A stretch of DNA of 64,000 bases from Thermoplasmatota archaeon (GTDB lineage: Archaea; Thermoplasmatota; Thermoplasmata; UBA10834). The notes beneath the pieces are model-generated. The model saw only the letters and a program-made list of their open reading frames with translations, made no database searches and was not told the origin of the DNA. Positions 1-58,519 of this stretch are shown piece by piece. The stretch lies in contig JAHIRF010000011.1 in the NCBI GenBank assembly GCA_018818785.1, forward strand, positions 1 to 64,000. Direction: 5' to 3'. A program made the translations under genes and the position numbers. Position 1 is the stretch's first letter. Each line of letters opens with the position of its first letter.

Positions 1-1114
1 GTCTGGATCTCAGCGCCGCCTTTAGGAGAGCGAATGTGTCGACCCTGCTTTCCTCGGGGCCGAAGTCTCTTGTAGCAAGACGCTGCCAGACCTTGTGAGG
101 TACTTGCATCTCGATGGTGTCTTCGGCCGTGTAGACTTTGCTGTCATACTTGATGAATGGCAGGACGGCGCTCATCGTCGAAGTCTTACCCGACGCAGTC
201 TCCCCGCAGAAGAATATACTCATCCCTTCTTCCAGGCAAAGCCAGAGATATGCGGCTTCTTGAGCGCTGATGGTATTCCACGTTATGAGTTGGGTGATGC
301 TTATGGGATCTTCTGCGAACTTTCTGATGGAGAAGCTAGGTCCCTTGACACTGACATCATCGGCATAGATTAGATTGATTCTCGATCCATCTTCAAGAGT
401 GCCATCGATGATCGGTCGTGCCATCGATGCGGGCCTCCCAATCCTCTCGCTTAGCGCCCTCACGTAATTGTCAAGCTCTTCCATCGATTCGAATTTGACA
501 TTGGTTGGCATGGCCTGGAAGATCTTGTGAACAAGGGATACATTGTCGTGACCTATGCAATGGATATCCTCGATGTACGGGTCACGCAGGAGTGGCTCCA
601 GAGGTCCTGCTAAGATGATGTTCTGTTTCGCATGATACCTTATGAGCTCCCATTCTCTTTCGGTGACGTACACCTTTGGTTCGGTGAAGAGGTCTCCGAA
701 CAGTCTCTTCTTCGGGGTGCCCTCCTCAGCATCCTCGGTCACCTCGGTCGATTCGTCTATCAGCTTCATCAGGTTGGATTCGAACTGCTGGGTCGATTCA
801 TGAGGGTCCATGTATACGGCCTTGTTGTAGACCTGCTGGATGATAGATTTGAACCTCTTTTCCAGCTCTTGGTTGAGCTGGGGCTGCACCGAGGTGTAAC
901 TGAGGGGGATGCTCTTGGTCGAGAATATATGCACGAACAATGGGTCTCCGATTGGATGGATGACATTGACGTCCTGCTCGTCCCCCATTTCTCTAGTCAG
1001 CGTGGCATGGAATTCTGGAGGAGACCTATGTTTCCTAACGAACTCTTGAACATAGGTCATCAGGTGCGGGTTCTTCCTCATGGCCCTCTTAAAACCCGCA
1101 TCTTCTGCTGGCAT
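1..1114 (-). CDS. Second archaellum/type IV secretion-type ATPase FlaI paralog (partial, runs off the left window edge)
   Basis: Manual translation of the minus strand (not in the ORF track because it is open at the edge): MPAEDAGFKRAMRKNPHLMTYVQEFVRKHRSPPEFHATLTREMGDEQDVNVIHPIGDPLFVHI..., Walker A GETASGKTS; collinear with FlaI at 1308-2939. Confidence 0.9.
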   Translation of the reverse strand, partial: MPAEDAGFKRAMRKNPHLMTYVQEFVRKHRSPPEFHATLTREMGDEQDVNVIHPIGDPLFVHIFSTKSIPLSYTSVQPQLNQELEKRFKSIIQQVYNKAVYMDPHESTQQFESNLMKLIDESTEVTEDAEEGTPKKRLFGDLFTEPKVYVTEREWELIRYHAKQNIILAGPLEPLLRDPYIEDIHCIGHDNVSLVHKIFQAMPTNVKFESMEELDNYVRALSERIGRPASMARPIIDGTLEDGSRINLIYADDVSVKGPSFSIRKFAEDPISITQLITWNTISAQEAAYLWLCLEEGMSIFFCGETASGKTSTMSAVLPFIKYDSKVYTAEDTIEMQVPHKVWQRLATRDFGPEESRVDTFALLKAALRSR

Positions 1115-1307
1115 CCTCTCCCATCCATTGAGGCATGATAGTGTCGCGCCCACTGGTGACCGTTCTGGTGCATGACATGATCAGAGGTGCACCTGTGGAG
1201 CGTATGCTCGGTGGCCTCGGATACTCATCCCTGGCGGGCCGTTATAAGTATTAGTGCCCAATTCTCACGCCTGACTATCACAACAAGGAAACAAGGTCGT
1301 CCCCCCT

Positions 1308-2939
1308 TCACACGGTGAATGGCAACCCAGAGATGCCTTCCTTCTGAAACGCTCTTATTATTTCGTTGGCGGTCTTATACGCTGTCATATTCGTCTCGAT
1401 CATCTTCTCGATTATGCGCGCCCTCAAGGCGAGCTCCTTGTAGATGTCCCTCTTATCCTTGTATCCCCTCTTGACCGCAATCTTCTCCTCAAGAATGAAC
1501 GAATTGTTCATGCCTCTGAATACATGTTGGTCGCTGACAGGATTCCACACGAACACGGCTCTTGTCATCACACCGCCCATCGATTCGCTGTAACCGAGGA
1601 TCTCCTCGACAGCCAAGGTTCTCCTGATGAGTTTGCCTCCTCTGTAGACCCCTGCCTGGAACACTGCGACATTAAGGTTGTCCATGCTCGTAATGGGCAC
1701 ACTGATCGGTGCGCCAGTGAACCTCTGAATCATCCTCTTCACGGATGCGGCGTGGAATGTAGCCATGACTGGAATGCCCGTCTGCATTGCCTGGAACGCG
1801 ACGTTTCCCTCCTTCCCTCTGATCTCACCGACTATGATGTAATTCGGTCTCGACCTCAGGCCTGATTTGAGCAGCGCAAAAGTATCCACTCTGCTATCTT
1901 CGGGGCCGAACTCTCTCGTGGACAATTGCTGCCAGACTTCATGAGGTGGCTGCACCTCGAGGGTGTCCTCTGCGGAGAATATCTTCTGATCATACCTTAT
2001 GAACGGGAATATCGCATTGAGTAACGTGGTCTTACCTGAGGCAGTCTCGCCGCAGACGAACACACTCATTCCGTTCTCGAGACATAGCCAGAGATAGGCC
2101 GCTTGCTGTGGTGAGATGGTATTCCACCCTGCGAGTTGTGCGACGCTGAGCGGCTCAGTCGAGAATTTTCTAATCGTGAATGTGGGGCCATTTACACTGA
2201 CGTCGTCTGCGTAGATGATGTTGATACGCGATCCATCCGGAAGGGCACCGTCGATTATCGGTCTCGAGATCGACGCAGGTCTCCCCATCCTCTCGCTCAT
2301 TCCTTTTGCGTATTTGTCTAAATCCACCAACGCATCGAATCTGACGTTTGTCTCCACCATTCCCATTACCTTATGGTATAGGTTGACCTTCCCAAGGCCG
2401 ACACAGTGGATATCTTCGATGTACGGGTCTCTGAGCACCGGTTCGAGCGCCCCGTTCTGTAGAATGTTCCTCTTGACATAATACTCGATTATCTCGAAAT
2501 CGTTCTCTGGCATGTAGACCTTGCTATTCGGTTTGAATAGCTGCGCGACCTTGGATGGCGGTCGCCTTTCCGTGACTTCCACGATCTCTCCGAGGAGCTT
2601 ATCGAGCACTTCATTGAATTCGGCATCTGTGGTATGTGTCTTCTCCTTTCCGGACTTGACGAATATATGATTGACAACATTGTCGTAGTGCTTCGTCAGT
2701 TCAGGGGTCAGCACGGGTTGTATGGTGTCGTACTTATGCCCCTCATCCTTTGATCCATGCAGGTGTATGAATATGGGGTCGCCCACGGGGTACACGACAT
2801 CCACTGTGGTCTCCTTGCCGAGATCTCTGCTGAGCGTGTCCATGAACTTCGGGGTCTGCGTCGTGTTCTGAGCGTACTCCTGGAGATACACGTTGAGGTG
2901 CGGGTTGCGTTCAAGTACTCTGCTGAATTTGGCTGGCAT
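1308..2939 (-). CDS. flaI: Archaellum motor ATPase FlaI/ArlI
   Basis: VFVCGETASGKTTLLNAIFPFIRYDQKIFSAEDTLE, RPNYIIVGEIRGKEG; follows flaH; start at MPAKFSRV preferred over 2972. Confidence 0.95.
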   Translation of the reverse strand: MPAKFSRVLERNPHLNVYLQEYAQNTTQTPKFMDTLSRDLGKETTVDVVYPVGDPIFIHLHGSKDEGHKYDTIQPVLTPELTKHYDNVVNHIFVKSGKEKTHTTDAEFNEVLDKLLGEIVEVTERRPPSKVAQLFKPNSKVYMPENDFEIIEYYVKRNILQNGALEPVLRDPYIEDIHCVGLGKVNLYHKVMGMVETNVRFDALVDLDKYAKGMSERMGRPASISRPIIDGALPDGSRINIIYADDVSVNGPTFTIRKFSTEPLSVAQLAGWNTISPQQAAYLWLCLENGMSVFVCGETASGKTTLLNAIFPFIRYDQKIFSAEDTLEVQPPHEVWQQLSTREFGPEDSRVDTFALLKSGLRSRPNYIIVGEIRGKEGNVAFQAMQTGIPVMATFHAASVKRMIQRFTGAPISVPITSMDNLNVAVFQAGVYRGGKLIRRTLAVEEILGYSESMGGVMTRAVFVWNPVSDQHVFRGMNNSFILEEKIAVKRGYKDKRDIYKELALRARIIEKMIETNMTAYKTANEIIRAFQKEGISGLPFTV

Positions 2940-2949
2940 CGTCGCTACC

Positions 2950-3648
2950 TCACACGACGGAAGTGATCTCAATGACCATTCCGACGTTCGGCTCTATCCT
3001 GAATCCAACCACTGGCGATACCCTGAATTGTGTGCCCCCGAACCTCTTCACCATGATGCTCCTCGATATCATCCCGCCAACCTGTGAGACGACAATGCTC
3101 AGGTAGACATGGCTATCGGATTCGAAAGGAGCCAATGATTTCGTCTCGATTTCCTGCGGGTCGACCGTGATGACGATGCTCTTCCCCATCCCCGTCAGCT
3201 TCTTGAAGAACGAAAGGACCTTTATGCTATTGTCTTCTCCGCGAAGGCTGTTGCTCACAAGGCTGGAGAAGGTATCGATTATCGTTATGTCGCTCTTGTA
3301 CAATTCCTCTGAACTGATCAGCATGCCCAGGAAGTCCTTTCGGCTATTGCCTGTTCCTACAAGAGGGTAGACGGGCACGAATTTGAGCTTGCCATTCAAC
3401 AACCACGATGCGATCGGATAATCCAGGGAATACATCTGGTTGATGAAATCCTTGACCGTCAGTTCCGTGGAAATGCAGGTGACCGAATACTGGTTTGACA
3501 GGAATCCGTAGATCATGCGCTGTACGATGGCGCTTTTCCCATTGCCATGAGCGCCTTCGATCAGAGTGATAGTTCCCGCAGGGAGACCTTGACCTAACTG
3601 ATCATGCAGGTCGTCTCTAGGTATCTGGAGCTTATAGGTCTCTCCCAT
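2950..3648 (-). CDS. flaH: Archaellum KaiC-like ATPase FlaH/ArlH
   Basis: Walker A GAHGNGKSAIVQRM, RecA-like fold, upstream of flaI. Confidence 0.93.
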   Translation of the reverse strand: MGETYKLQIPRDDLHDQLGQGLPAGTITLIEGAHGNGKSAIVQRMIYGFLSNQYSVTCISTELTVKDFINQMYSLDYPIASWLLNGKLKFVPVYPLVGTGNSRKDFLGMLISSEELYKSDITIIDTFSSLVSNSLRGEDNSIKVLSFFKKLTGMGKSIVITVDPQEIETKSLAPFESDSHVYLSIVVSQVGGMISRSIMVKRFGGTQFRVSPVVGFRIEPNVGMVIEITSVV

Positions 3649-4113: not shown

Positions 4114-5307
4114 TCAGAGCATGATGATATCTGATATCCCATTCTCAACCACCACCTTCACGCTCGTACCGAGCCTCTCGATCACGAGCCCATTCACACT
4201 ATCTGACACGAATATCTTGCCCGTTGCGTCCACCCCCCAAACCGAATCGCTGAGGCCCTCATCTATTGTGCCTCTCATCGTACCGTTCTCATAGGCGACG
4301 AGTATCTCGTCGCTGTTGTTCGTTATGAACAAGCTCCTTTCATCGAGACCCCCGGCACTGACGGATATGTCCGTTGTCGATGAGAGCATGCCGGACCCGA
4401 TTATCTGCGCTCCTTCACTTCCGTCGAGTCCATACCTGTCGATATGGTTGCTTCCAGAGCTGTTGTCAAGAACGAATATGTATGCGCCTACGGTGATGTC
4501 TATCGGACTGGTCATCGTGCCGCCGTTGGCGATTAGTTGATCGACGAAGACGCCGGTCGATATATTGAATCTGTCTATGTGGTCGAAGTTGTCGATCATG
4601 TAGATGTAGTCAGAATCGATTGCGAATGATACTGGTGTTGATGCGTTTGTCGCATCCGAGACGAACACATCGACCCAGTTTCCGTCTGTGTCGAATCTAT
4701 CTATGTGTGACGCCTCGTCTAGAACGTATAGATACTCACCGAATACTTTGATGTCACTGGGTGCCACCATGTGTGCGCTGTCAGTGATTGTGAAACTGAA
4801 TGTGCCAGTAAGGGTGAAAACGTCAATGCTGTTTCCGTCAAGGACATATGCGCATTCGCCAACCGATAAGCTAGTTGGCGAGGAAAGCTGTGCATCGTTC
4901 GCAACGAGGTTTCTTAGACCTACGTCAGAATCGAAGTCTATCAATGGGTCGTTGACGGTGATCGTGAGCACCTCGAGTGGCAGCCAGATGTCGGTTGTCT
5001 TGCCTTCGATGTCTGTGATGAATGAAGACATGAACAGGCCGCTGACGAGGAGGTTCGATTCGCTTATCTCAAGGGCGATGCTTCCTGTATTCTGCACCAG
5101 GACCTCGAGATCATTCGTGTCGCGATAGTAATTCACGTCGATTATACTGATTTGAGTCTGCGATCTCTCGCTCATATCATCGTATCTTTCATCCAAAGAC
5201 ACGGTTACTTTATCAAACGCATCGGTTACCGAGGCGTAAAGAATAGAAAAAAGAATGAGAAAGGCGGCGAGGAAAATCGCCATTGTAGCCGAGACACTAA
5301 ACCCCAT
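4114..5307 (-). CDS. flaF: FlaF/ArlF with an inserted NHL-like beta-propeller
   Basis: N-terminus MGFSVSATMAIFLAAFLILFSILYASVTDAFDKV and C-terminal SVKVVVENGISD are FlaF-like; about 260 aa of repeated [PxxISV..YxYVLDxxxHIDRFxxxG] blades between them. Confidence 0.82.
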   Translation of the reverse strand: MGFSVSATMAIFLAAFLILFSILYASVTDAFDKVTVSLDERYDDMSERSQTQISIIDVNYYRDTNDLEVLVQNTGSIALEISESNLLVSGLFMSSFITDIEGKTTDIWLPLEVLTITVNDPLIDFDSDVGLRNLVANDAQLSSPTSLSVGECAYVLDGNSIDVFTLTGTFSFTITDSAHMVAPSDIKVFGEYLYVLDEASHIDRFDTDGNWVDVFVSDATNASTPVSFAIDSDYIYMIDNFDHIDRFNISTGVFVDQLIANGGTMTSPIDITVGAYIFVLDNSSGSNHIDRYGLDGSEGAQIIGSGMLSSTTDISVSAGGLDERSLFITNNSDEILVAYENGTMRGTIDEGLSDSVWGVDATGKIFVSDSVNGLVIERLGTSVKVVVENGISDIIML

Positions 5308-6481
5308 GAAAGCCCTCCAGACTCTCCTTGAACTTCGATATGTTCTGTTCGAGGGAGTTTAGCCTATCTTTGTCGACTTCGAGCCCTGCTATCTTCTGGA
5401 CGAACAGGAGTGACTTCAGATGGTCGTCGGCTGACAGGCGCCAGTCTTCGACCTTCTTGTAGGGTGCTGCTTGTGGTGGGGGTAGATCCCTGAAGACATC
5501 CTCACGGACCTCTTCTTGGCCCATGTATTTCGTGACGTCCTGCAACTCACCACGGGCATAGGACATGATTTCTGATTTCACATCCTCGCTTATCCACCCT
5601 ACGTCTACGTAGTAGTCAAGGGCGAGTGATATCCTGTCTCTTGTCAAGCGTTCGAACAGGAATTCTATCCAGCGCATGACAAGGACTAAGGTGAGGTAAT
5701 CGTGTGGTATGTATGCCAGCAAAGGCTTCTTGTTATGCTTGCTCCTTGCTGCCGCACGCACCTGTCTCTCATATCTCTCGTCGGTCGATGTCTTGTCCAT
5801 CGTCGGTGGAGTATCTCTCCTTTGTCCAATCGATACTGTCTCCAAGGGCATTGTCGACGTCCCTGGCTCCCACGGGGTGGCGTCCCTACTCTTCTTTGAT
5901 GCCGCGCTCCTAGCTGAAGATGGCGTGTCGATCTCCCCTTCGCCGAACGGTCTGAACTCAGGGATATCCCCGTCGAGCTCGATCGTTCCGAACGAGATCT
6001 CGTCAGCTGGCTTCTCCGTCTGCTTCTCCACTGGTTTGGGAGGAGACTGTTCCTTCGGAGGAGCTTCTTTCTCTGACATATCAATGAACGGATTGAACTT
6101 CGCGGAGACGACTTCGTATACTGACAGGAGCTTTCTGATGTCCTGATCCATCTGGGTGAGTTTATCTCTGACCTTCGAGTTCTCGTTCCGCTCATTCGTC
6201 AGAGCGGAGTCGATTCTCCCGATCTTGTCTTCGATCTCTTCCAGACGACCCATGAGCTCGCTGAGCTCTTTTACACCAGTAAGTCCTCCCTCACCCGAGC
6301 TATCGTCTTCGAGGTAGTCCTCATCGTCGGTGGGCGACACTATATCTGATCCGTCGCTCCCTTCTGCTGCGTCATCGAAAGTCTCCCCTTCCGTATCATC
6401 GAACTCGTCCTCGAAGTCTTTCAACTTCCTACGAGCTGAGGAACCATCTTTTCCAGGTTTCTTGCGGAACAGGCCGGCCAT
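5297..6481 (-). CDS. Archaellum accessory protein, FlaC-like coiled coil fused to a FlaD/E C-terminal domain
   Basis: KLLSVYEVVSAKFNPFID (FlaC-like) and C-terminal RWIEFLFERLTRDRISLALDYYVDVGWIS...; acidic linker; start at MAGLFRKK. Confidence 0.85.
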   Translation of the reverse strand: MAGLFRKKPGKDGSSARRKLKDFEDEFDDTEGETFDDAAEGSDGSDIVSPTDDEDYLEDDSSGEGGLTGVKELSELMGRLEEIEDKIGRIDSALTNERNENSKVRDKLTQMDQDIRKLLSVYEVVSAKFNPFIDMSEKEAPPKEQSPPKPVEKQTEKPADEISFGTIELDGDIPEFRPFGEGEIDTPSSARSAASKKSRDATPWEPGTSTMPLETVSIGQRRDTPPTMDKTSTDERYERQVRAAARSKHNKKPLLAYIPHDYLTLVLVMRWIEFLFERLTRDRISLALDYYVDVGWISEDVKSEIMSYARGELQDVTKYMGQEEVREDVFRDLPPPQAAPYKKVEDWRLSADDHLKSLLFVQKIAGLEVDKDRLNSLEQNISKFKESLEGFHGV

Positions 6482-6523
6482 TTTCGATACACCTAACCCC
6501 GTGCAGTCCTGGGAAAACATCTT

Positions 6524-6594: not shown

Positions 6595-7239
6595 CTACTT
6601 GAGCACCACTACGCTGCTTGCCTCGAGGGTCGAAGGAGCAGTTATCTCCAGATATGTCGGCACGCCGTGCTTGGGGATCAACAGGAGTGTCAGCTGTTCC
6701 TGTGGGTCAAGCACCATATCGATGCCACTTGTTGCGTTCACGTCGATTTCAATCTGGAAGACATCTCCAGCGGTCATCATGACTGCAGTGGTTGACGGAT
6801 CCATGTCTCTGAGCTCAGATGCTGTGAACTCTGTCGCAGATGCAGCAGATGCGTATGAGAGCGTTATTTCTGATGCCACGCCTCCACCAATCGTCTGCGT
6901 AACCTCAATTATCGTGTTCTCGAGGTTGATGCCCGGGCTGCCAGCGATCAAAGCTATCTTTATGTAGAGGTGGTCAACCGCAGGTGCGCCATCTGTCGAT
7001 CCCCATACAGCAAGGACCTTGAACCCTGCAGCAACGTCCTGTATGGCCTCGTCACCAGTCGACTCGGCCTGCTGTTGCAGCTTGTATGCGGTCTGAACCA
7101 AGACACCCGCTGCCACAGCGGCAACGATTATCATGGCAATGAAGATAAGAAGGGTTCCAACACCCATCTCGCCTTCCTCTTCCATTTTTCTCTTTTTCCA
7201 CGCTAATTTGTTCATATTTCTATTCCTCCAACTTTGCAT
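6595..7239 (-). CDS. Archaellin (flagellin) 1
   Basis: Class III signal [40 protein letters not shown] and C-terminal [18 protein letters not shown]; true start may be downstream (MNKLA...). Confidence 0.9.
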
Positions 7240-7684: not shown

Positions 7685-9406
7685 TCAGATGAGATTCACA
7701 TATCTGTAAGTCCCGAGGTATGGGATCGAACAGTCCTCTATCGTCGGCTGGCCTATGCTGGGGATGAACTTCATCGAGAACGCCGATTCAGCATGAAGGT
7801 TCAACCCTATCTCTCCAGCGTCCACGAATATCTTCACAAGCCCTCCATCCGAGAGGGAGAAAGTGCTCGCGAATATGCCATCAAGATCCCTGAGTATCTG
7901 CACAGAGAATCTGTCAGCGGTAGCTCCGGCCGGTCCGAATTCCGCGGAATTGAATCCCAGCGTGACATCCTTCTCGCCATCAGTGATCTCTATCATCAGG
8001 GAGGTGAACAGGATCGGCATGCTTCCAGGCACTGTCTTGACCTTGATCTCGATCATTTGGATGGTGTTCGATGGTATCACCGGTTGTGCATAGTTATCTG
8101 CTGCATCCACAGCTACTACAGTATAATAGTACAGAGTGCCGGATACTCCGGAATAATCGTAGTAATGGATCGTATTGCTGTCGACGGACGCGATCGGAGT
8201 GGAGTTCCGCAACTCCTCGACGCTATCGAGCGCGGACATGCTGGTACTCCTGTAGATCAGATATTCACCGATGAACGTCTCATCATCGGACGCCTCGCTC
8301 CAAGTCATCTCGACAGATTGTATGTATTGCCTTACGCAGAACGCCTGCACCGCGGATGGAGCGATGGAATCCACATTCTCAGCAATGTATGACAGTGTTC
8401 CCAAGGAGACCTGGTTCCCTGCCCAGTCCTCGACAATCACATAATACGTATAGGTTCCCTCATCGCTCGGCGCGTCAGCATAGCTGGACGCTGTCGAGTT
8501 GAGGGTCGCGATCAGTTCCGCTCCGATGGGTACGGATATGATTCTTCGTCCATCGACCATCACGTTCGCTAGGGATCCAACGGATACGCTGCTTCGATAG
8601 AGCAGTTGTTGGCTGACTCCACTTCCTGCATCGGTTGCAGGAACCCAGAATAGCATGACAGAATAGTTATCGGGTCTCGATGTGCTCGTCATGGACCCGC
8701 CGACGGGTACGGTCTGGTCCTCATCATGACTTGCATCGTCTGTGGATGCAGAACTATCTATCGGGGTATAGATCGCGCGGTTCCCCGCGGCATCCACGCC
8801 GACTATCGCGTATGCATATGAAGTGGAATTATCGTCTCTGGCCGTATAATCCGTATACTGTCTATCTGATCCGAAACCTGCGGTCAACCTAGCCATTTCG
8901 TAGGATGGATTGAGTTGGCTGAGTGTCAACAGTCGATTCCTCGCGATCTGTTCATTGAATACCGCGGGGTTCGTCGGGTCGTAGACTGAAGTCCTGTAGA
9001 TTATCTCTTCAGCGAGTCCAGAGCCATAATCTATAGCGGAGCTCCAGTTGAGGACTATTCCAAGTGGTGAGACCCCGTCACGTGATTCTGTCACATTCCA
9101 TAAGATGCCACCAGTAGGAGGTTGATCATCTCTCGAAGGCATGTATCCCGATGCGATTGACGAATCTGCACCGTCAGGGTTCCGATCGCCCGCGACGTTC
9201 ACGACCGTGAGCCCTCCAGAAACCTCTGACACGGCATCGTCGACCGTCCTCTGCCCCTGTTGCTGCAGCAATGCCGCAGCGTATAGTATCAATGACGCCG
9301 CGATTGCAGCCACTAGTACCATCGCGATGAAAATGATGAGCGTACCTATACCGACGTCGGCTTCTTCATCCTTCTTTATGCTCGTTTTAGCCTTCTTGAG
9401 TCCCAT
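7685..9406 (-). CDS. Archaellin 2 with about three inserted FN3-like domains
   Basis: DEEADVGIGTLIIFIAMVLVAAIAASLILYAAALLQQQGQ archaellin N-terminus and archaellin-like C-terminus; middle contains repeated [VxLxW..A.D.GSGxxxxxIYRSS...YxYxVxxxDxAGN]. Confidence 0.85.
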   Translation of the reverse strand: MGLKKAKTSIKKDEEADVGIGTLIIFIAMVLVAAIAASLILYAAALLQQQGQRTVDDAVSEVSGGLTVVNVAGDRNPDGADSSIASGYMPSRDDQPPTGGILWNVTESRDGVSPLGIVLNWSSAIDYGSGLAEEIIYRTSVYDPTNPAVFNEQIARNRLLTLSQLNPSYEMARLTAGFGSDRQYTDYTARDDNSTSYAYAIVGVDAAGNRAIYTPIDSSASTDDASHDEDQTVPVGGSMTSTSRPDNYSVMLFWVPATDAGSGVSQQLLYRSSVSVGSLANVMVDGRRIISVPIGAELIATLNSTASSYADAPSDEGTYTYYVIVEDWAGNQVSLGTLSYIAENVDSIAPSAVQAFCVRQYIQSVEMTWSEASDDETFIGEYLIYRSTSMSALDSVEELRNSTPIASVDSNTIHYYDYSGVSGTLYYYTVVAVDAADNYAQPVIPSNTIQMIEIKVKTVPGSMPILFTSLMIEITDGEKDVTLGFNSAEFGPAGATADRFSVQILRDLDGIFASTFSLSDGGLVKIFVDAGEIGLNLHAESAFSMKFIPSIGQPTIEDCSIPYLGTYRYVNLI

Positions 9407-10284: not shown

Positions 10285-10926
10285 TCAGGTCAGTATCTCA
10301 TATGTGTTCGACAGGACTGAAGGTGTGGTGATCAACACATAGGTCGGTATCCCGTGCTTCGGTATCAGGAGTATCGTGGCATCCTGCTGGGTGACGAGAC
10401 TCATGTCCGTAGGCAGTTGCTCTGCCAGATCGATGTGCAACAATGCAACATCTCCTTGGGTGATTCCCACATCATCTGCGGTCCAAGCTGCGATATTATC
10501 GGGATATGTATCCCTCAGGCTCGACACATCGAAAGTACCATCTGTGGACGCGACAGAATAATCGGGACATGACAGCGTCTCATCTGCCTCTCCATTTGAT
10601 ATCTCGATTATCAGCGTGGCCAAATTGATGACCGGGCTGCCTGCTGTCAACGCCACCTTCAGGTACAGATCAGTAATGACTAATGCACCCGAGCTATTAT
10701 TCGTCATTCCATATATCGCTACCACTTTCAGACCCGTTGCTACTTCCTGCAATGCCTGATCGCCTGTCGCTTCTGCCTGTTGCTGTAGTTCGTATGCGGT
10801 CTGGACTAGGACACCAGCTGCTACGGCGGCGACTAATATCATCGCTATGAAGATCAGCAATGTGCCAACCCCCATCTCCCCTTCCTCGCCCATACGAATC
10901 CTTCTGGGCTTGGGTATCTTTTCCAT
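10285..10926 (-). CDS. Archaellin (flagellin) 3
   Basis: [63 protein letters not shown]; close paralog of archaellin 1. Confidence 0.92.
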   Translation of the reverse strand: MEKIPKPRRIRMGEEGEMGVGTLLIFIAMILVAAVAAGVLVQTAYELQQQAEATGDQALQEVATGLKVVAIYGMTNNSSGALVITDLYLKVALTAGSPVINLATLIIEISNGEADETLSCPDYSVASTDGTFDVSSLRDTYPDNIAAWTADDVGITQGDVALLHIDLAEQLPTDMSLVTQQDATILLIPKHGIPTYVLITTPSVLSNTYEILT

Positions 10927-11071
10927 CTCTTTCCCTCCTCTGTGGTCGCGGAGAGGTCAGTCATCCAAGATCCAGATTGCATGAGTTGAGAATGTCGTGT
11001 GCGGCGTGGAGCGCCCACTCTCAATTCTCAATCATCACTAGAACGATGGTGCCTGGCCTATCCGCGTAGTG

Positions 11072-11214
11072 TGATTCTCTTTCACTCCCGAGGTAGGTCT
11101 ACATTTGCCCTGTGGATAGTCCAAGCGTCTTGTCTCCCGAGTGCGTTAGTGCCGCCTCTGAGAGCTATGTCTGATTCTCATGTATGATAAAAATGGTTGT
11201 GTCGTGATTCTCTT
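11072..11214 (-). promoter_or_regulatory. Cluster of archaellin motifs (AAGAGAATCA 11072-11081, ATGAGAATCA 11172-11181, AAGAGAATCA 11205-11214)
   Basis: Three same-orientation copies upstream of archaellin 3. Confidence 0.5.
11096..11122 (-). repeat. Variant of the 26-bp element (copy C), GGACTATCCACAGGGCAAATGTAGACC
   Basis: Same orientation as copy B; loop-length variation around the stem TCTACA/TGTGGA. Confidence 0.8.
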
Positions 11215-11299
11215 TTTAGGAAATGACAAATCTGCCCGAAAAGAATAGAACGTAAAATAGAGGGGAGTTAAAAGGCCCCCATAGTTTAGGAAAGGTTAT

Positions 11300-11626
11300 T
11301 CAGAGCTCGCCTCTTGGTTTCGGCGTCGCCATGTTCTGAACTATCTCCAGCGGTGCGGATCTGTAGTTCATATCCACTTTCATGCGCAGGGTACCCCTCT
11401 CGTAGACGAGGGTGACGCTGCCTATGCGGGACTTGTATACCTTGTATCTTTTCCCATCCGCCGTTAACTCGCTGCCTTCCTGTTCGATCAGACCTGCCGC
11501 GGCCAGCTCTCTAAGCTTTCGATAGCAGCTCGCAAGCGGTATGTCGAACATGAACGCGAGTTCTCTTGCACTCCTAGCTTTATGGCTAGACGCTGCAAGG
11601 ATGTTCATGTTGTATTGGTCCGTCAA
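11300..11626 (-). CDS. Winged-helix transcriptional regulator (paralog of 11910-12296)
   Basis: SARELAFMFDIPLASCYRKLRELAAAGLIEQEG HTH; adjacent to the archaellin genes. Confidence 0.75.
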   Translation of the reverse strand: MTDQYNMNILAASSHKARSARELAFMFDIPLASCYRKLRELAAAGLIEQEGSELTADGKRYKVYKSRIGSVTLVYERGTLRMKVDMNYRSAPLEIVQNMATPKPRGEL

Positions 11627-11778
11627 TATTTGAGCGATGCCGAGTCTAGCATGCGCTATATCCGTATCGGTGGCCGTTTTATCCCCTCACACAGGGGGGA
11701 GTTAGAGCTTATATCCCGTCCCTTATCCTGGGGAAACTAATTCTAAGATATATATAATTGTCTTTTTGTTTCTAAGCC

Positions 11779-11788
11779 ATGAGAATCA
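11779..11788 (+). promoter_or_regulatory. Archaellin motif ATGAGAATCA upstream of the wHTH gene
   Basis: Exact 10-mer, coding-strand orientation, ~30 bp after TATA-like AAGATATATATAA. Confidence 0.5.
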
Positions 11789-11909
11789 TTAGTACTCCTC
11801 AGATCGCAGATCTGCCCTTCGATTTTCGAGCAGCCAAGTGAGACATCGAAAGTTGATGATCATCCTCGACTTATCGTCTGTGATATTCTCTGATTGGAAT
11901 TGAACAAGA

Positions 11910-12296
11910 TTGTTTATGAACGGTGACCATGAATGTATGCAGGAGGCTCCCCTTTCGATGAATGCGTACGAACTGTCGAAACTCCTGATCGACGAGTATT
12001 CAGCGAAGATACTCACGTATGCCAGAGACAAGCCTCGATCAGTTCAGGACATGTGCCAGAGGCTCGACATACCCGTGACGCTCGGATATCGGCGGGTCAA
12101 CACACTTCTCAACGAAGGTCTCCTCAGTTGCGAGGGAAGGGCCCTTACCCAGAGAGGCAAGTGGACCAAGCTCTATGTCTCTCAGGTCAGACGAGCCCAG
12201 ATATTCTTCGATGATGGAAAGGTGCGTCTGAAGTTCGAGTTCAAGACGGGCCAGGTCCGATGGTCGGATGATTGGGAAGCCGCTCCTGCCGTATGA
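11910..12296 (+). CDS. Winged-helix transcriptional regulator (paralog of 11300-11626)
   Basis: SVQDMCQRLDIPVTLGYRRVNTLLNEGLLSCEGRALTQRGKWTKLYV; collinear with the neighbouring wHTH. Confidence 0.75.
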   Translation: MFMNGDHECMQEAPLSMNAYELSKLLIDEYSAKILTYARDKPRSVQDMCQRLDIPVTLGYRRVNTLLNEGLLSCEGRALTQRGKWTKLYVSQVRRAQIFFDDGKVRLKFEFKTGQVRWSDDWEAAPAV

Positions 12297-12455
12297 TCAT
12301 GGATTACCACCCTCACACGATCCAGGGATACTGATAATCATATCCGAGATTTGACCGGAAACCTATTTCATGGTTTCCGACGATGCCCCCTGCGTAGTCT
12401 GCCTTTCCGCTGTTTGGGTTATCATGACCCAGCGCGTGCCTGGCCTGGTGCGGAC

Positions 12456-13628
12456 ATGAACGCGCGACAGAGTAGCCAGAATGATCGGGGTCCCACAGAC
12501 ATCGACCTCGCCAATTACGCAAAGGCCTATATGGCCGCTTACATGAGCGCTGTCCAGAGCGAGAGCCCTGAACATATTCCTCAGTTCTACAAGAATCACC
12601 CTTACGGCGTCGAAGTCTGCTATATGCCGAATGGCAGTTTCTGCATGCTTTTCGAGAGAGCTGACAGACCCACGATCGCGGTCTCCGGCCAGGAGTGGGA
12701 CTATGTCATGGGCAAGATCATGTCGGGCGTGTTCTATCTGGCCACGGTATACTCTCACGAAGGGTCTTCGGTCGAGGACGCCTCCTCGCGAGGCCGTCGC
12801 GATGCGATAAGGGACATACGTGCGATGGAGAGTTCCGACATCGTGGATGCCACTCGTCAGCTGGAGAACATTGTGCGTGAATTGAGTGATGTGAATCAAT
12901 GGATGAAGAATCCGGTGAAGATGGCTGATAGTGCGCTAGCGAGACTCGAGCCGCTTAAGCAGACGATCGCCCGCTCCGGCCCGATAATGGACAAGATGTC
13001 CATGGTGGATGGCCTGAGACGATATTCTACTGGGCCATCGGAGATGAAGCTGGATTCAGATGGAATTGAGATGCTCTCATCTGTAGTGACGCAGATGACG
13101 GACCTGTCGGAACTGCTCAGGGATGTGAAACTACAAGGGGAGAAGCTCGAGGAAATCGAAAACCATCTCAGAACCGAGGTCCACGACTTCAAGATAGAGC
13201 TCGACAAGAAGATCGCGAAAGGCCTCGGTGTGATACTGTCCACTACGGATAGGAAGATCGACAAGGCGTTCGCATCCATACAACCTGGCCAACAGGAAGA
13301 TGAAAGCGACGATTCGTTGGACGATCTATACGATGAGGTGAACGCCCTCAGGGAAGCTGTGGATCAGCTGAACGCTGAAGAGAAAGACGACACAGACGAG
13401 AGATTGGCTGCTCTTTCCGATGAGGTGTTGTCACTCAAGGATGCAATCAGCAACATCAAGATCCCGATGATCGAGCCTCCGGTTATGCCTGAGCCAAAGA
13501 TCCCTGCCGAGCTACTCACTGGGATGCGAGACGTCAGAGGGGAGGTCGGCCAGATCAATCTGCGTGTCAAGAGGATCGAGGAATATCTCACCGCTCTGTC
13601 GGCGGCGAGGCGGTCATCTAACAGATGA
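12456..13628 (+). CDS. Coiled-coil protein of unknown function next to the archaellum locus
   Basis: Long heptad-rich region (LSELLRDVKLQGEKLEEIENHLRTEVHDFKIELDKKI...); start at MNARQSS preferred. Confidence 0.7.
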   Translation: MNARQSSQNDRGPTDIDLANYAKAYMAAYMSAVQSESPEHIPQFYKNHPYGVEVCYMPNGSFCMLFERADRPTIAVSGQEWDYVMGKIMSGVFYLATVYSHEGSSVEDASSRGRRDAIRDIRAMESSDIVDATRQLENIVRELSDVNQWMKNPVKMADSALARLEPLKQTIARSGPIMDKMSMVDGLRRYSTGPSEMKLDSDGIEMLSSVVTQMTDLSELLRDVKLQGEKLEEIENHLRTEVHDFKIELDKKIAKGLGVILSTTDRKIDKAFASIQPGQQEDESDDSLDDLYDEVNALREAVDQLNAEEKDDTDERLAALSDEVLSLKDAISNIKIPMIEPPVMPEPKIPAELLTGMRDVRGEVGQINLRVKRIEEYLTALSAARRSSNR

Positions 13629-13636
13629 TCCAAAGG

Positions 13637-14107
13637 TCAGAGATGAACCGTAATGTCTTCCTTTATCCTGTCGAGGATCAGATAGGTGTTGCTCCTCTCG
13701 ACCTCGTCTATCCTTATGATCGAATCGATTATGTCCTTCAACTCCTCTCTTGAGGACGCTCTCAGAAGGATCGCGAAGTCTATGTTCCCAAGTAGGAAAT
13801 AAGCCGCCCATACTCCAGGGATCTTGGATACCTTCTCTCCGATCTTCTTCACGTAATCCGGACCGTACCTGCCAGTGATCAATGATATCGCCAGGATCTC
13901 CTTTCCGACCTTGAGTGGGTTCACACAAGCCTTGAATCCGGTGATCACTCCTTCCTCAACCAGCCTGTTCACCCGGTAGTGGACTGTAGATGACGACAAC
14001 CCTGTTTTCTCTCCGATCTTCTTCAGGCTCACGTTGCAGTCGTCTTGAAGCATTTTCAAAATGATCCGATCGCTTTTGTCAAGTGTCGCAGGATTCTTTT
14101 TCTCCAA
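13637..14107 (-). CDS. Lrp/AsnC family transcriptional regulator
   Basis: LDKSDRIILKMLQDDCNVSLKKIGEKTGLSSSTVHYRVNRLVEEGVI plus RAM domain. Confidence 0.93.
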   Translation of the reverse strand: MEKKNPATLDKSDRIILKMLQDDCNVSLKKIGEKTGLSSSTVHYRVNRLVEEGVITGFKACVNPLKVGKEILAISLITGRYGPDYVKKIGEKVSKIPGVWAAYFLLGNIDFAILLRASSREELKDIIDSIIRIDEVERSNTYLILDRIKEDITVHL

Positions 14108-25386: not shown

Positions 25387-28300
25387 CTACGCTTGGGGTG
25401 GTGGTGGTTCTTCCGGCGGCGCCATGCCTTCCATTCCGCTGCCGCCTTCCATGACCATTCCTTCACCGCCCTTCTTCTTGCGCTTCATCAGCATCACAGC
25501 GGCCAAGATGGCCACGACCACAGCAATTCCGATTCCTGCGATCAGCAGCAAGCTGGTGCTCTTCTTCGCAACAGTGATGGTCTCGATGTCGCCATACAAT
25601 GTCTTGTTGTAATGGTCCTGGCCATCATCGGCTGTCACGTTGACTTTGAACACGCCGGCCGTATCAAAAGTGTGGTTGAAGTACACCAACACTCTCACCT
25701 GCGGATCGAGGTCGACATCCTCCTTGATGTCTGTCGTGCCGTCACCGAATTCTATTTTCACGGTGGAAGAATCTCCCTCAAAGTCACCGACGCTCACGGT
25801 GAACATGACGGTCTCTCCCGCGGTGATCTCATTCTTGTCCGCGTTCATCGTGGCAGTCGCTCTCTTGTTCGCTTCAACCACAGTCGCAGTCCGCTCTGCG
25901 CTGACATTGTGCCCCATTCCATCGTCCGCAGATATGGTCAGTTGGAACGAGCCTGTAGCGGTATATGTGTGGTTTGCTGCCCATGGTCGGTCCGCGGCAC
26001 CCATGGTCATAGGGGTGCCATCGCCCCAGTTGTACCATACCGTGATAGTGTCTCCATCCGCATCCGTGATGTCGACTGGTTGGTATTGCTGCGGCACGTT
26101 ATACACCGCGGTGAATGATGACTGCACCTCGAGGATCGGAGCGGCGTTCTCAATGACCACTACCGTGAACTCTGCAGACTCGTTGAACTCACCGTCGTAT
26201 GCATAGACTGTAACCATGTAGGTCCCAGGCTCGGCATAGGTGTGTTCAAACTCCGCATACTGTGCCTCATAGGTGCCGCCAGCTGTCGTCGCAGAGAGGT
26301 TGTTGCTCTCGTCTCCGAAGTCGATGGTCAGTACCAACACATCACCATTCGCATCCGATGCACTTGCGTTCAAGGTCGTAACGACATCGATGTTCACCGG
26401 ATATGGTGTCACATCGAGTTCGAACGAACCTGGGGCTACATTGATGCCCTCTGCAATCACTGCAATGCGTGTGTTGGACACATTGTGCCCTTTCCCATCA
26501 TCGACATAGACGGTGACAGTGTAATTCGCCTCGGTGTCCCATGTGTGCGATACCGTTGATGTCACGATCGCCCCAACCGTGCTCGGTGTGTTGACCGTGA
26601 CACTGTAGGTTCCGTCGTCCCAGTCCCAGGTGAAAGTCAGTATATCTGGGTCAACATCGGACGAACTTGCCTTGCACGTCAACGGCTGACCAGGTACTCC
26701 GTTCATCGCCTGAATGGCTGGAACCGTCGGCGGCTGGTTGACGACGATGTTGTATGCCCTAGTAGTCGAGACATTTGAGTCGCCGCCTTCTATCCCGCCA
26801 TAATCAAAGACCGAGATCTCCACACTGTATGCATCCGGAGTGGTCCATGCGTGAGTCACTGTGCTCGTGACCTGTTGTCCCACGGGTGTTGGCGCAGTCA
26901 CATTGTATGTGCCGTCGTCCCAGTCCCAGGTTATCTTCGCGCCATCCTGCCAGGATTCCAAATCAGTCGCCACAATGGTCCAGGTCGTCACTGCGTAGAC
27001 ATATGCCTGGCTCGTCGGGTTGCTGGCAAGGCTTATGATATTCGGCGCTTGGTTGACCTCTCCCTGGACTTCGACAACGGCTGTCCTAACTATGGGGTCT
27101 CTGAGTCCGGTCGTCGGATCAACATATTCGTCTGTGATTGATACATTGAGGTCATAGACACCTTCGATAGCATAGCCATGGCCCGCAGTAACCTCCGTTG
27201 GTGTGGTTGCACCGCTGACTGTATAGGAATTCGATTCACCATCGCCCCATTCGAATTCGACAATGATGTCGTCGCCTTCAGAATCGGAAACCTCGATGGT
27301 CACGAAGGGCGTTTCATCGGCTACGTATGTAACATACGACTCCTCTGGAACCGTGTTGAAGACTGGTGCTCTGTTCGTCACTTGCTTCACATTGAACCAT
27401 ATCCATAGTAGGTCGGATGCGACATTGAGGCCGGAATGCTCAGAAACTTCTCCCCAGTTGTCGAAATTCGCGTCAGTGTATCCATACAATCCGAGGTCGT
27501 AGTACGGTGGGTTCTCACAATACGAGTCATAGACCCACTGCTGCAGCTTGTCAAGGATCACTTTTCTCGCTCCAATGTCCAGAGTGTTCATCGCCAGGCT
27601 CATGTTCTGGTCGAAGGCTGAATAGGCTCCATCCAGTCCCCATTCCTCTGGAGCGTCCGTATAGTTGTCGTTACCATACCACCATGGTCCCATCGGCATC
27701 TGGCAGTTGTCGCCACCGGTCTCAATCTCAGAGGTGAGCCAGCAGCTGAGAGCGCCGCCCATCGGCTCAGGGCCCCAGCCCCAGTGCCAGACCCATATGT
27801 CATAGTCCGCCTTGTACCAGGCGACGTTGATCATGGTTATCTCTGATTCTGTGGTGTATACCAGACCTATGCCGGCTTCAGCTGCCCAGCCCTGCCATGC
27901 CTCCCCAATGGTCGCGTAGGTCGGGTCGGTGTCAGGTGCCTGGCATCGTATGCCTGTGAGCTCAGTGCCGGCAGGCACTCCGTAACCGTTGCCTGCTGCT
28001 GCCTCCCAGTAGCCATCACCGTCTGAATCGACATTCCATCCATGGCTGTTGAGCCATGCCTCGGCCGCCACGGGGTCGTAAGGCAACTGGTTCTGGATAT
28101 CTGCCTGCCAGAACCCTGGCTGCACAACAGATGATCCTATCTTGCCATATCCTTCAAGGGTCACGTTGACGATGTAATCCTTGTTCAGCGTCATCATAAT
28201 CGCTTTTCTGACATTCGGATCGTTCAACGCTGCATGATGGGAGCCATATGGCTTTTTCACGAAGCTAGCTGGAATCGCGTTGATTGCGATATCGCAGATG

Positions 28301-29214
28301 CCGGGTTCCTGGACCGCGGCCTTATAGACGTTAACACTCGCCCCTGCACCCAGGGCTTCCAAGAACGATCTCATGTCTCCGGTGAGGACAGCGAAGTCCT
28401 GCACACCAGAGTTTATGTCCTGGGTCAATCCCTGTGTCGAGGTATAGACGGTGTAGAGTATACCATCGATCTTGACGGTCCTCTCTGCACCATAGTCTGA
28501 AGTGCCATGGTAGTTTGGCGCGGTCATGTACTTGTACCACGAACCCTTTAGATATGATTCGAAGACGAATGGTCCGCTACCGACCAATTCTCCAGGGTTC
28601 ATCGAAGCCAATGCGTTCGGGTAGGTTTCCCAAAGGTACTTCGGCACGATAGGCATGGATGCGATATCATCGATCAAGGTCGCCTTCGCGTAAGGCGTAT
28701 CCATGCTGAAAGCGTAGTTATTGACCTTGGTTATGTTGCTTACTTCTTCCAGATACCAATCGAAAGTCGCTCCAGTGTTGTCCTTCATTGTCTGGAATGA
28801 GAATACCACATCGTCTGCAGTAAGTGGATGGGAAGTATCATCGATGTTAGCCGCGTTCCTGAAGTATGCGGTATCCGTGATGTTGATGGTGGTCGTCATC
28901 ACACCAGTCGTCGGATTGACGCGCTGGTAGTATCCGGTCGCCAAATCATATACAGGTCCGTTCCAGTTCTGGTCGTAAGTGAAAAGCGCACTGTACACCA
29001 GATAGCAGGCGACATAGTCTTCTACCATCTCGATGGCGAGCGGATTCCAATTGACGATTTCGCTCAACCATCCTACACCAACATATCCTTCATCTGCCGC
29101 GCTTACTGTTCCGGTCGCAGGCGATCCGGTGATGAACACTGACATGGCCGATACGGTCAGTACCATCACTATCATGATCGCCAGCGCACGCATAGTTTTT
29201 AAACCAATCCTCAT
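25387..29214 (-). CDS. Peptide ABC substrate-binding protein fused to about six PKD domains, C-terminal TM
   Basis: SBP family 5 features (VRKAIMMTLNKDYIVN, AEAWLNSHGW) then WGDGES, WDDGTYN, WDDGTYS, FGDESN, WGDGTP, FGDGTT and a C-terminal TM with basic stretch. Confidence 0.92.
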   Translation of the reverse strand: MRIGLKTMRALAIMIVMVLTVSAMSVFITGSPATGTVSAADEGYVGVGWLSEIVNWNPLAIEMVEDYVACYLVYSALFTYDQNWNGPVYDLATGYYQRVNPTTGVMTTTINITDTAYFRNAANIDDTSHPLTADDVVFSFQTMKDNTGATFDWYLEEVSNITKVNNYAFSMDTPYAKATLIDDIASMPIVPKYLWETYPNALASMNPGELVGSGPFVFESYLKGSWYKYMTAPNYHGTSDYGAERTVKIDGILYTVYTSTQGLTQDINSGVQDFAVLTGDMRSFLEALGAGASVNVYKAAVQEPGICDIAINAIPASFVKKPYGSHHAALNDPNVRKAIMMTLNKDYIVNVTLEGYGKIGSSVVQPGFWQADIQNQLPYDPVAAEAWLNSHGWNVDSDGDGYWEAAAGNGYGVPAGTELTGIRCQAPDTDPTYATIGEAWQGWAAEAGIGLVYTTESEITMINVAWYKADYDIWVWHWGWGPEPMGGALSCWLTSEIETGGDNCQMPMGPWWYGNDNYTDAPEEWGLDGAYSAFDQNMSLAMNTLDIGARKVILDKLQQWVYDSYCENPPYYDLGLYGYTDANFDNWGEVSEHSGLNVASDLLWIWFNVKQVTNRAPVFNTVPEESYVTYVADETPFVTIEVSDSEGDDIIVEFEWGDGESNSYTVSGATTPTEVTAGHGYAIEGVYDLNVSITDEYVDPTTGLRDPIVRTAVVEVQGEVNQAPNIISLASNPTSQAYVYAVTTWTIVATDLESWQDGAKITWDWDDGTYNVTAPTPVGQQVTSTVTHAWTTPDAYSVEISVFDYGGIEGGDSNVSTTRAYNIVVNQPPTVPAIQAMNGVPGQPLTCKASSSDVDPDILTFTWDWDDGTYSVTVNTPSTVGAIVTSTVSHTWDTEANYTVTVYVDDGKGHNVSNTRIAVIAEGINVAPGSFELDVTPYPVNIDVVTTLNASASDANGDVLVLTIDFGDESNNLSATTAGGTYEAQYAEFEHTYAEPGTYMVTVYAYDGEFNESAEFTVVVIENAAPILEVQSSFTAVYNVPQQYQPVDITDADGDTITVWYNWGDGTPMTMGAADRPWAANHTYTATGSFQLTISADDGMGHNVSAERTATVVEANKRATATMNADKNEITAGETVMFTVSVGDFEGDSSTVKIEFGDGTTDIKEDVDLDPQVRVLVYFNHTFDTAGVFKVNVTADDGQDHYNKTLYGDIETITVAKKSTSLLLIAGIGIAVVVAILAAVMLMKRKKKGGEGMVMEGGSGMEGMAPPEEPPPPQA

Positions 29215-55519: not shown

Positions 55520-58519
55520 ATGAAGACAGGTGCAATGAGTAAGCTATCAGCCAGCATCATCGTGCTGGTAATGGCGATGTCCGCCTTGGTCATCCTTCCC
55601 GGATCGAACGAGGGTGCACTGCCAAGCGGGGTGAAAATATATGTGCCCGTATCCGACGGGTCTGGAGTATCATCGGGTGTTACGGTCACCCTGACGAATG
55701 TGCACACTGGGGCGGTCATTCTGGTCCCCTACGCATCGCCAGGCATGTTCGTAGCCACGAACGCTCCTTCGGGATATTACAGGATTGATGTGACCTCTGA
55801 CAACCATTGGGACCTCTGGGGTGCCAAGGAGTTCAGGTACGATGGTCTCACCAACTATACAGTCACTCCCGTCATCACGTTGGATGCATTCCCGGACAAG
55901 GTCCATCAGTGGAATGTGACAGTCAGGGACGCATCGACCAGCGCCAAGATATCTGGCGCGACAGTCGGGTTCTACGACCCGGTTCTTGACGAGATCGTCG
56001 CTCAGGCTACCACCAACTCGCTCGGTCTTGCCTCTGTGAACATGTTCAACTCCGCAACGCCTGGGGATTATGCACTGTTCGTGAAGGCGAAGAACTACAG
56101 GATGTATTATGATAACACGGTCGCTGTGACCTCCGACAGTTTCCCTAACTTGACCGTTACGAAATCCGTCCGAGTGACCGGCTTCGTGACTGATGAAGAC
56201 GGCCCAGCACCAAATGTTGTGGCGTACCTTCTCAGCAACGACACATCCTTGCCATGGATCGAGCGCCTGATGAAGAGCGCGACCGGCGGGAGCTTCTTCG
56301 AATTCGATGCGGTCCCGGGTGACTATACACTCTGCGTCGATGCAGGTGGAGTATCCGCATATATGCAGTACCTGACGGTAGGTGCAACCGCGATATCGCT
56401 GACTCTCCCCCTCGATGCTCAGACGCAGAGGACCGAGCAGATCGCGATAGAATACGGCGCTGACTACAACACATTCTCGTTGAGTCTGGATACCGTGTGG
56501 TCATATGACGACGCGTACCCTGGCCTGAAGTACGCCGATATCGGCAGCCTCAGGATGCAGGTCGATCTGAGCGCAGGAGCTCCTGATGGAACGATCGATG
56601 CAGGCGAGGTCGGCGCATTCACGGCAATGGTCTCGACTCAAGCCGCGGTCCATGTATCGACCGATGCACTCATAGAGGTGAACGATACCGTGTACAAATC
56701 CGCCACCTCGGTCACTGGCCTTGTCGTCGGATTGTCGACAGGATTGGTGACTTCGACCGATGGAGTCGCATACTCGTATGATTGCGCTTACACATCCGTC
56801 AAGGCATTGGATGTCGGTGCCGAGGAGTACACTGCGACCGCATACACGAGGTACGACACCGCGTCCGTGAACCAAGTCTATTCGATCGAGCTGCCATCCG
56901 GGTACGAACTCGTCTACAACAACACTGAGGAGACCGGGGAGCACGTCGCATCATACGGATACCTGACTGTGGTCCTTGATCCAGAAGAGTACGTGGGTAC
57001 GACGCAGGCCGTTGACATGGTCTTCGAGGAATGGATGATGCCTGACGCACTCGGAGGAGTCGATGACACCAACGTCACGTATGTGATGACCGACGAAGAC
57101 GGTAATGTGACCGGATATGTCGTGCGTGTAGGTTCCGAAGCGACATTCAACGCGACGAGTTCCTACGATCCGAACGGCAACCCTCTGGAATTCACATGGA
57201 CCTTCGATGATGGTGCATCTGAGACCACCAGCGAGCTGGCCTTCAACCATACATACACGACCGCATCCGCGAGCAGGACCGTGCTTCTGACAGTGACGGA
57301 TGTATCTGGAATGGTCAACCAGACTGAGTTCGAGGTCGTCTGTGACGCGCGCGACCCGACCCCGGTGTTGAGCGTGAAGGAACTCACCGTCAACGAGACG
57401 ACCAACACGCTCAAGGTCGACCAGTACGAACTGGTATGGTTCAACGCTACATCTTCGACTGATGATGTTGTCTCCGCAGACGATGCGCTCGGAATGATCG
57501 AATCGTTCCAAATCGAATATGGCGAGGGCAATGTGTCCGACCGTGTCTACATGACCGAGGATGAGAAGAACGTCTCGTACTCCTGGGAAGACTCTGGCAC
57601 ATACACCCTTGTCCTGAATGTCACGGATGTCGTAGGACACTGGAAGAACACCACGATGACCGTCATCGTCAACGATACATCTAGTCCCGACCCGTCCTTC
57701 GTAGTGAAGAACGAATCGTGGGGCACGAGCCTGATCGAGGGCGAAGTCATCGTATTCAATGCGAACGCGACCAAGGACAACATCGACAACAATAGCGCTC
57801 TGTACTTCTCGTGGTACTTCAACGACAATATGGGCGATGATTCGTGGCTCAACGGCACCGGACTCTGGAATGTCACGCACACCTTCGAGGTAAGCGGCAG
57901 CTACGCAGTCAGGTTGAATGTGACCGATAGCTCAGACAACTGGGACGGATACACAAAGACCGTGACCATAAGCGCTGGTCCGAGGCCCAATGTCATCATC
58001 GACAATGAGATAACGTTCGACCCGGTCGAGTTCACCGAGGACTCTCAGGGGTACATCGTCGTGAACATCACGAACCGTGGCAGCGCAGTAGCTACCGATA
58101 TCGTGTTGAAGTTCTACATCGAGAACGCCGATGGCACTGAGGACGAGCTGGGGACATGGTCCACCATACTGAACCGTACGACAGGCGCGACCATCACCAC
58201 CATCGAGGTCGGTGGCACGGCTTTCGTGAAGTTCCCGTACACCTTCAGCAGCCCAGGGACATACACGGTGAAGGTCAATGTGACCTCCGATAACCAGCTA
58301 GTGGTCGATGAGAACACCGCGGACATCACGGTCAAGGAAGCCGGATGGAAGAAGATCGCCCTGTGGGGCGGTGTCCTCGCTGTGATCATCCTGGTCCCGC
58401 TCCTACTCTTCCTGCGTGGCAGGTGGATGAAGAGGGACAAGAGAGGCCCGAGGCGCGAGAAGCAGAAGAAGGAGAAGGAGAAGCAGCAGAAGAAGGAGAA
58501 AGACAAGGAAGAAGTATAA
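55520..58519 (+). CDS. Large surface protein: carboxypeptidase-regulatory-like, PKD-like and CARDB-like domains, C-terminal TM with KE-rich tail
   Basis: Signal-like N-terminus, WTFDDGASETTSELAFNHTY, CARDB-like VVNITNRGSAVATDIVLKF, TM VLAVIILVPLLLFL. Confidence 0.82.
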   Translation: MKTGAMSKLSASIIVLVMAMSALVILPGSNEGALPSGVKIYVPVSDGSGVSSGVTVTLTNVHTGAVILVPYASPGMFVATNAPSGYYRIDVTSDNHWDLWGAKEFRYDGLTNYTVTPVITLDAFPDKVHQWNVTVRDASTSAKISGATVGFYDPVLDEIVAQATTNSLGLASVNMFNSATPGDYALFVKAKNYRMYYDNTVAVTSDSFPNLTVTKSVRVTGFVTDEDGPAPNVVAYLLSNDTSLPWIERLMKSATGGSFFEFDAVPGDYTLCVDAGGVSAYMQYLTVGATAISLTLPLDAQTQRTEQIAIEYGADYNTFSLSLDTVWSYDDAYPGLKYADIGSLRMQVDLSAGAPDGTIDAGEVGAFTAMVSTQAAVHVSTDALIEVNDTVYKSATSVTGLVVGLSTGLVTSTDGVAYSYDCAYTSVKALDVGAEEYTATAYTRYDTASVNQVYSIELPSGYELVYNNTEETGEHVASYGYLTVVLDPEEYVGTTQAVDMVFEEWMMPDALGGVDDTNVTYVMTDEDGNVTGYVVRVGSEATFNATSSYDPNGNPLEFTWTFDDGASETTSELAFNHTYTTASASRTVLLTVTDVSGMVNQTEFEVVCDARDPTPVLSVKELTVNETTNTLKVDQYELVWFNATSSTDDVVSADDALGMIESFQIEYGEGNVSDRVYMTEDEKNVSYSWEDSGTYTLVLNVTDVVGHWKNTTMTVIVNDTSSPDPSFVVKNESWGTSLIEGEVIVFNANATKDNIDNNSALYFSWYFNDNMGDDSWLNGTGLWNVTHTFEVSGSYAVRLNVTDSSDNWDGYTKTVTISAGPRPNVIIDNEITFDPVEFTEDSQGYIVVNITNRGSAVATDIVLKFYIENADGTEDELGTWSTILNRTTGATITTIEVGGTAFVKFPYTFSSPGTYTVKVNVTSDNQLVVDENTADITVKEAGWKKIALWGGVLAVIILVPLLLFLRGRWMKRDKRGPRREKQKKEKEKQQKKEKDKEEV

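Follow-up and report, generated by a model that had tools for sequence, protein, structure and literature searches.

The archaellum operon examined here almost certainly encodes an ArlF (FlaF) that carries a six-bladed NHL-like β-propeller within its Ig-like sandwich. The window analysed, 64 kb in length, comprises bases 1–64000 of an 87-kb contig from an archaeal genome of 1.97 Mb, whose close relatives bearing names are MAGs labelled Thermoplasmata or Euryarchaeota. The gene is intact and single, running from ATG to stop on the minus strand (5307..4114; 397 aa), and the plus-strand frame over 4114–5307 contains many stops. An earlier note, made from the letters of the window, had described, at these coordinates, a FlaF whose sandwich domain contains an NHL-like propeller of six blades. 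Its coordinates were right, with the gene on the minus strand, and its description is borne out by a profile test on the excised protein, AlphaFold2 models, Foldseek matches and recurrence in at least 21 genomes.

The operon follows the order archaellins-ArlCDE-ArlF-ArlG-ArlH-ArlI. The last 11 nt of arlCDE are shared with the start of arlF, and 3 nt separate the arlF stop from arlG; within the arl operon arlF adjoins arlG, the place expected of an ArlF gene. The genes, all on the minus strand, are:

10926-10285, minus strand: archaellin
10255-9773, minus strand: ArlDE-like protein
7685-9406, minus strand: archaellin-type protein of 573 aa (archaellin N-terminus, then Ig/FN3-like repeats)
6595..7239, minus strand: archaellin, 214 aa (Pfam PF01917, 6.6e-28)
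5297..6520, minus strand: arlCDE fusion, 407 aa (Pfam Arch_fla_DE and FlaC_arch)
4114..5307, minus strand: arlF, ArlF with the propeller insert, 397 aa
3664..4110, minus strand: arlG, the stator partner, of ordinary length (148 aa; NF052591, 9.2e-28)
2950..3648, minus strand: arlH, 232 aa (NF052589, 244.7 bits)
1308..2972, minus strand: arlI motor ATPase, copy 1 (NF058587, 721.6 bits)
2..1153, minus strand: second, tandem ArlI paralog, truncated at the contig end (51% identity to copy 1 over 371 aa)

The 573-aa archaellin-type protein, perhaps a decorated or cap archaellin, has counterparts in relatives from families f1 and f2, in frames of 585–632 aa.

The identity of the host protein is carried by an excision test. 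Against the uncut protein, the curated ArlF model NF052590 scores 102.5 bits (residues 1–120, profile positions 1–121), under its cut-off of 110 bits. With insert residues 122–379 removed, the remaining 139 residues (1–121 and 380–397) score 113.5 bits over positions 1–137 of 137, and this full-length match marks the protein as a cleanly interrupted ArlF rather than a junction of two genes. The N-terminal sequence (MGFSVSATMAIFLAAF / MGFSVSATMAIFL) is without the [KRDE][GA] cleavage motif, and the archaellin N-terminal domain TIGR02537 matches the archaellins of the operon but not this protein. Alignment with seven ordinary ArlF proteins places the insertion point in the short loop that joins the strand WLPLEVLTITV to the last hairpin, SVKVVVENGISD. 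The C-terminal hairpin, SVKVVVENGISDIIML, aligns with the final hairpin of ordinary ArlF, in agreement with the FlaF-type C-terminal strand that the earlier note had seen after the repeats. In the AlphaFold2 model this hairpin closes the Ig sandwich (strands 53–119 and 382–396), as it does in the model of an f2 ortholog (strands 53–122 and 384–398), both at modest confidence. The host parts of the protein are:

5161..5295, minus strand: N-terminal TM helix, aa 5-49, without a class III signal peptide (AlphaFold2)
4945..5160, minus strand: first part of the Ig-like β domain of ArlF, aa 50-121 (NF052590 positions 1-121; strands in two AlphaFold2 models)
4117..4173, minus strand: C-terminal β hairpin of ArlF, aa 379-397 (excision test and alignment)

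The propeller itself spans residues 132–378 (nt 4174–4914); a propeller had been noted at about 4170–4953, of which the fold stands and the span is narrowed. AlphaFold2 builds six blades of four strands each across aa 144–378, with pLDDT about 80–93 across most of this region, and the f2 ortholog, 46% identical, shows the same six blades in a second model; the two models share the same eight ortholog sequences and are not fully independent. An internal repeat is also evident, the best gapless self-match lying at lag 42 with a score of 68 (200 shuffles: maximum 55, mean 31.8). The region expected to close the ring, aa ~127–134, has a pLDDT of about 50 and is of low confidence in both models. 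Six blades are thus well supported by these predictions, the exact ring closure less so, and the sandwich with a closed six-blade propeller foreseen in the earlier note is recovered in its blades, its closing strand being of low confidence. The elements are:

4906..4914, minus strand: candidate closing ('velcro') strand, aa 132-134 (AlphaFold2, pLDDT about 50)
4786..4878, minus strand: blade 1, aa 144-174 (AlphaFold2)
4657..4755, minus strand: blade 2, aa 185-217, motif YLYVLDEASHIDRF (AlphaFold2 and self-match)
4534..4629, minus strand: blade 3, aa 227-258, motif YIYMIDNFDHIDRF (AlphaFold2 and self-match)
4399..4506, minus strand: blade 4, aa 268-303, motif YIFVLDNSSGSNHIDRY (AlphaFold2)
4264..4368, minus strand: blade 5, aa 314-348 (AlphaFold2)
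4174..4242, minus strand: blade 6, aa 356-378, three strands (AlphaFold2)

Foldseek against the PDB returns the six-bladed NHL domain of Brat as its top match (E 9e-11; TM 0.70 by target). A sequence profile of the insert finds the NHL domains of Thin (2.1e-8), TRIM2 (1.2e-6) and Brat (6.6e-6), and also LRP propellers, including that of LRP4. The gathering score of Pfam NHL (PF01436) is not reached (best E 0.16, in 2 of 8 orthologs), so fold and profile make the insert NHL-like without placing it in the Pfam NHL family. The LVIVD repeat (PF08309) matches weakly in 4 of the 8 orthologs, with a best E of 0.0014.

Could the long frame be an artefact, two genes joined by assembly or frameshift error? 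The chance of this is negligible. The same frame, of 352–399 aa, occurs in 21 genomes, several of the carriers being single-contig assemblies (CP070732.1, CP070748.1, CP070736.1; G032, G074). The long ArlF always lies between an archaellin or ArlCDE and ArlG, its C-terminal hairpin is that of ArlF, and evidence of fusion or frameshift, which would have told against the earlier note, was not found.

Long ArlF frames are confined to particular lineages. Of 400 genomes sampled from the class, 65 match the ArlF model, and long frames (at least 354 aa in this survey) occur only in families f1, f2 and f14, in 21 genomes; the other 44 ArlF-positive genomes have an ordinary short ArlF, with no open frame above 209 aa. 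Within the order that holds f1 and f2, ArlH is found in 8 of 21 genomes and the propeller ArlF in exactly those 8. Family f14, which we take to be Aciduliprofundaceae with genome G032 presumably Aciduliprofundum boonei, has the propeller ArlF in 13 of its 13 ArlF-bearing genomes. One further case in the rest of the phylum is the MAG G446, from another class, whose contig C14 encodes a 398-aa protein with the same insertion site. The spread of long FlaF homologues, which the earlier note had proposed to trace, is thereby mapped within the phylum. When contigs were searched, a single-protein query found nothing, and an alignment query recovered the relatives.

MAG G446 has a second arl operon, on contig C117 (L121), with the short ArlF typical of its family; the two operons possibly reflect transfer or a binning error. 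By eye, the C14 operon (L105, L131) is interrupted by CheA-like and methyl-accepting-type genes. In f14 the operon order is archaellin-ArlF-G-H-I-J, with no ArlC/D/E between the archaellin and ArlF (L129, L130, L132–L134). The f14 genome G205 also carries, on contig C13 (L075), a second operon with a short ArlF; its ArlH groups with family f25, which suggests, from sequence, that this operon was acquired by transfer.

The insert quite probably had a single origin. Its site is identical in the window lineage, f14 and G446 C14, and the last blades are alike. In the ArlH tree the 21 rows from propeller operons fall on one side of a branch, with weak support (71/66); when G446 C14, a long branch, is included, one propeller clade is not rejected (AU p 0.585). 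There is no need to assume that each lineage gained its insert independently, given the same site, the similar last blades and ArlH trees compatible, at that weak support, with one clade. An Ig domain already complete ahead of the propeller in f14 was likewise set aside: the joined f14 ArlF, with the insert out, scores higher and spans the whole profile (42.5 bits over 1–136, against 35.2 over 1–111 for the pre-propeller part alone). The idea that the propeller was copied within the genome from a second protein was also discarded, as no propeller paralog is found elsewhere in the genome at E<=10.

The insert is, on sequence comparison, under purifying selection and more conserved than the host Ig domain, with a mean pairwise identity in f1/f2 of 0.59 for the propeller against 0.43 for the Ig domain, and a dN/dS for the propeller of 0.06–0.15 in unsaturated pairs. 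These values speak against a tolerated passenger with no role of its own, as does retention in all archaellum-bearing genomes of two families. A position in a loop that leaves the host fold undisturbed, and sister lineages that keep a short ArlF, would fit such a passenger, which we nevertheless consider highly improbable. A structural role of the NHL type is enough to account for the conserved H-[IV]-D-R positions. Loop conservation does not differ significantly between the top and bottom faces of the propeller (permutation p 0.13), and the conserved residues do not single out one face for binding; both observations weigh against the envelope-binding role proposed below.

What the propeller does may follow from its host. 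In the accepted stator, ArlFG, the ArlF subunit caps the ArlG filament and binds S-layer protein (PMC8667602, PMC8978795, PMC4307647). We propose that an NHL-like propeller was inserted, probably once, in the ancestor of this operon type, into the short loop before the last Ig β-hairpin. The helix would keep ArlF in the membrane, the Ig domain would still join the ArlG filament, and the propeller would project beyond the membrane, offering a large new binding face. Through this face the ArlFG stator could be tied to a cell-envelope protein or glycan of the lineage, and would thus stay stationary while the motor rotates the filament instead of itself. A rigid propeller that two short linkers attach to the Ig domain would most simply be an enlarged or replaced envelope-binding head. 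As an overall explanation, ArlF with its inserted propeller as the envelope-binding head of the ArlFG stator is the reading we moderately favour, and the propeller as the main envelope-binding module has slightly better than even standing. The anchoring to a different envelope or extracellular partner suggested in the earlier note is in this respect plausible. Against this reading, the unadorned Ig domain serves as anchor in many archaea, so anchoring here might not depend on the propeller, and ordinary S-layers may surround both the window lineage and cells of the A. boonei type.

Two large surface proteins in the window, of 1275 aa (25387–29214, minus strand) and 999 aa (55520–58519, plus strand), have PKD-like repeats and a C-terminal membrane anchor, as judged by eye. 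They are possible envelope partners of ArlF.

The propeller could instead act as a spacer or bearing, packed against the rotating or ArlG filament and shaping its passage through the envelope, with no envelope binding. Propellers are rigid and toroidal, the stator position would put this one beside the filament, and such a part would suit the pore-like channel proposed for FlaF (PMC4307647); but the sequence indicates no filament-facing surface, and the propeller is common to f1/f2 and f14, whose archaellins are of different kinds (f1/f2 have the 573-aa archaellin). We regard this role as unlikely. Somewhat less likely still is a surface receptor or adhesin for glycan, mineral or ligand, with the stator merely its mount. 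NHL and LRP propellers are ligand-binding modules, and the insert weakly resembles the LVIVD and NHL repeats of surface proteins; yet ArlF is the one place where it occurs, the rest of the genome having no paralog, and it is missing along with the archaellum in f1 genomes without ArlH. An RNA-binding role for the propeller is not expected.

Known archaella use one ATPase for both assembly and rotation. The operon type of f1 and f2 has two tandem ArlI ATPases, about 51% identical, followed by one ArlJ. Both copies are complete in six relatives with longer loci (in L080, at 10352–12004 and 12178–13851), and Walker A, GETASGKT, is intact in both copies of the one pair inspected. Across the 400 genomes of the class, f1/f2 are the only families with tandem pairs that exceed the ArlI cut-off; the other genomes with several ArlI (G205, G363) have their copies on separate contigs. 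A division of labour between the copies is possible. Published accounts describe a single archaellum ATPase (PMC12448462). More tentatively, and with the balance against it, these operons may represent a separate archaellum subtype: ArlF, through its propeller head, would fix the stator to the envelope, and f1/f2 would add tandem ArlI1/ArlI2 on one platform protein. If so, both torque anchoring and torque generation would differ from known archaella.

A differently enlarged ArlF occurs in genome G408, with three C-terminal PKD domains (PKD_4, 1.8e-49), and the next gene encodes a long ArlG in which an Ig-like part is repeated (the pair lies at L095:1444–2751 and 2738–3379). Like the propeller ArlF, it is enlarged by a surface-type domain; unlike it, the PKD domains are of an unrelated fold and are appended after the Ig domain instead of being inserted. 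G408 is a second, unrelated way to enlarge the stator.

The field has yet to settle how the archaellum stator is fixed at the cell envelope. A study of Thermoplasmatales (ISME J 2025) compared ArlF AlphaFold models from S-layer-bearing and S-layer-less archaea and reported no distinct binding motif; the propeller lineages were not included and Aciduliprofundum is unmentioned (PMC12448462). Neither a propeller nor PKD comes up in the census of archaeal pili by Makarova et al. (2016; PMC4858521). In the open-licence literature we found no paper on ArlF with a β-propeller or on the archaellum with NHL repeats; an earlier mention elsewhere is possible. Whole lineages of the Thermoplasmatales' own class have an ArlF with an obvious additional domain of binding type. 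While ArlF itself is a known component, a propeller in an archaeal stator points to a hitherto undescribed way of anchoring the motor. With a cultured carrier, apparently Aciduliprofundum boonei, and a separable domain, the anchoring role of ArlF is directly testable.

Compared with known systems, the protein resembles ArlF/FlaF (NF052590; the S-layer-binding stator protein FlaF of S. acidocaldarius) in its TM helix without a class III signal, its Ig-like sandwich, its place in the operon ahead of ArlG/ArlH/ArlI and its whole-profile match once the insert is removed. It differs by about 250 additional residues that form the propeller in the loop preceding the last hairpin. Towards LVIVD-repeat surface propellers the scores are weak, with one short matching stretch, below the gathering score, where inspected. 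The NHL propellers of Brat, Thin and TRIM2 share six blades, the best Foldseek matches and profile similarity, whereas the propeller described here is an archaeal insert within an Ig domain, extracytoplasmic by topology and below the Pfam NHL threshold.
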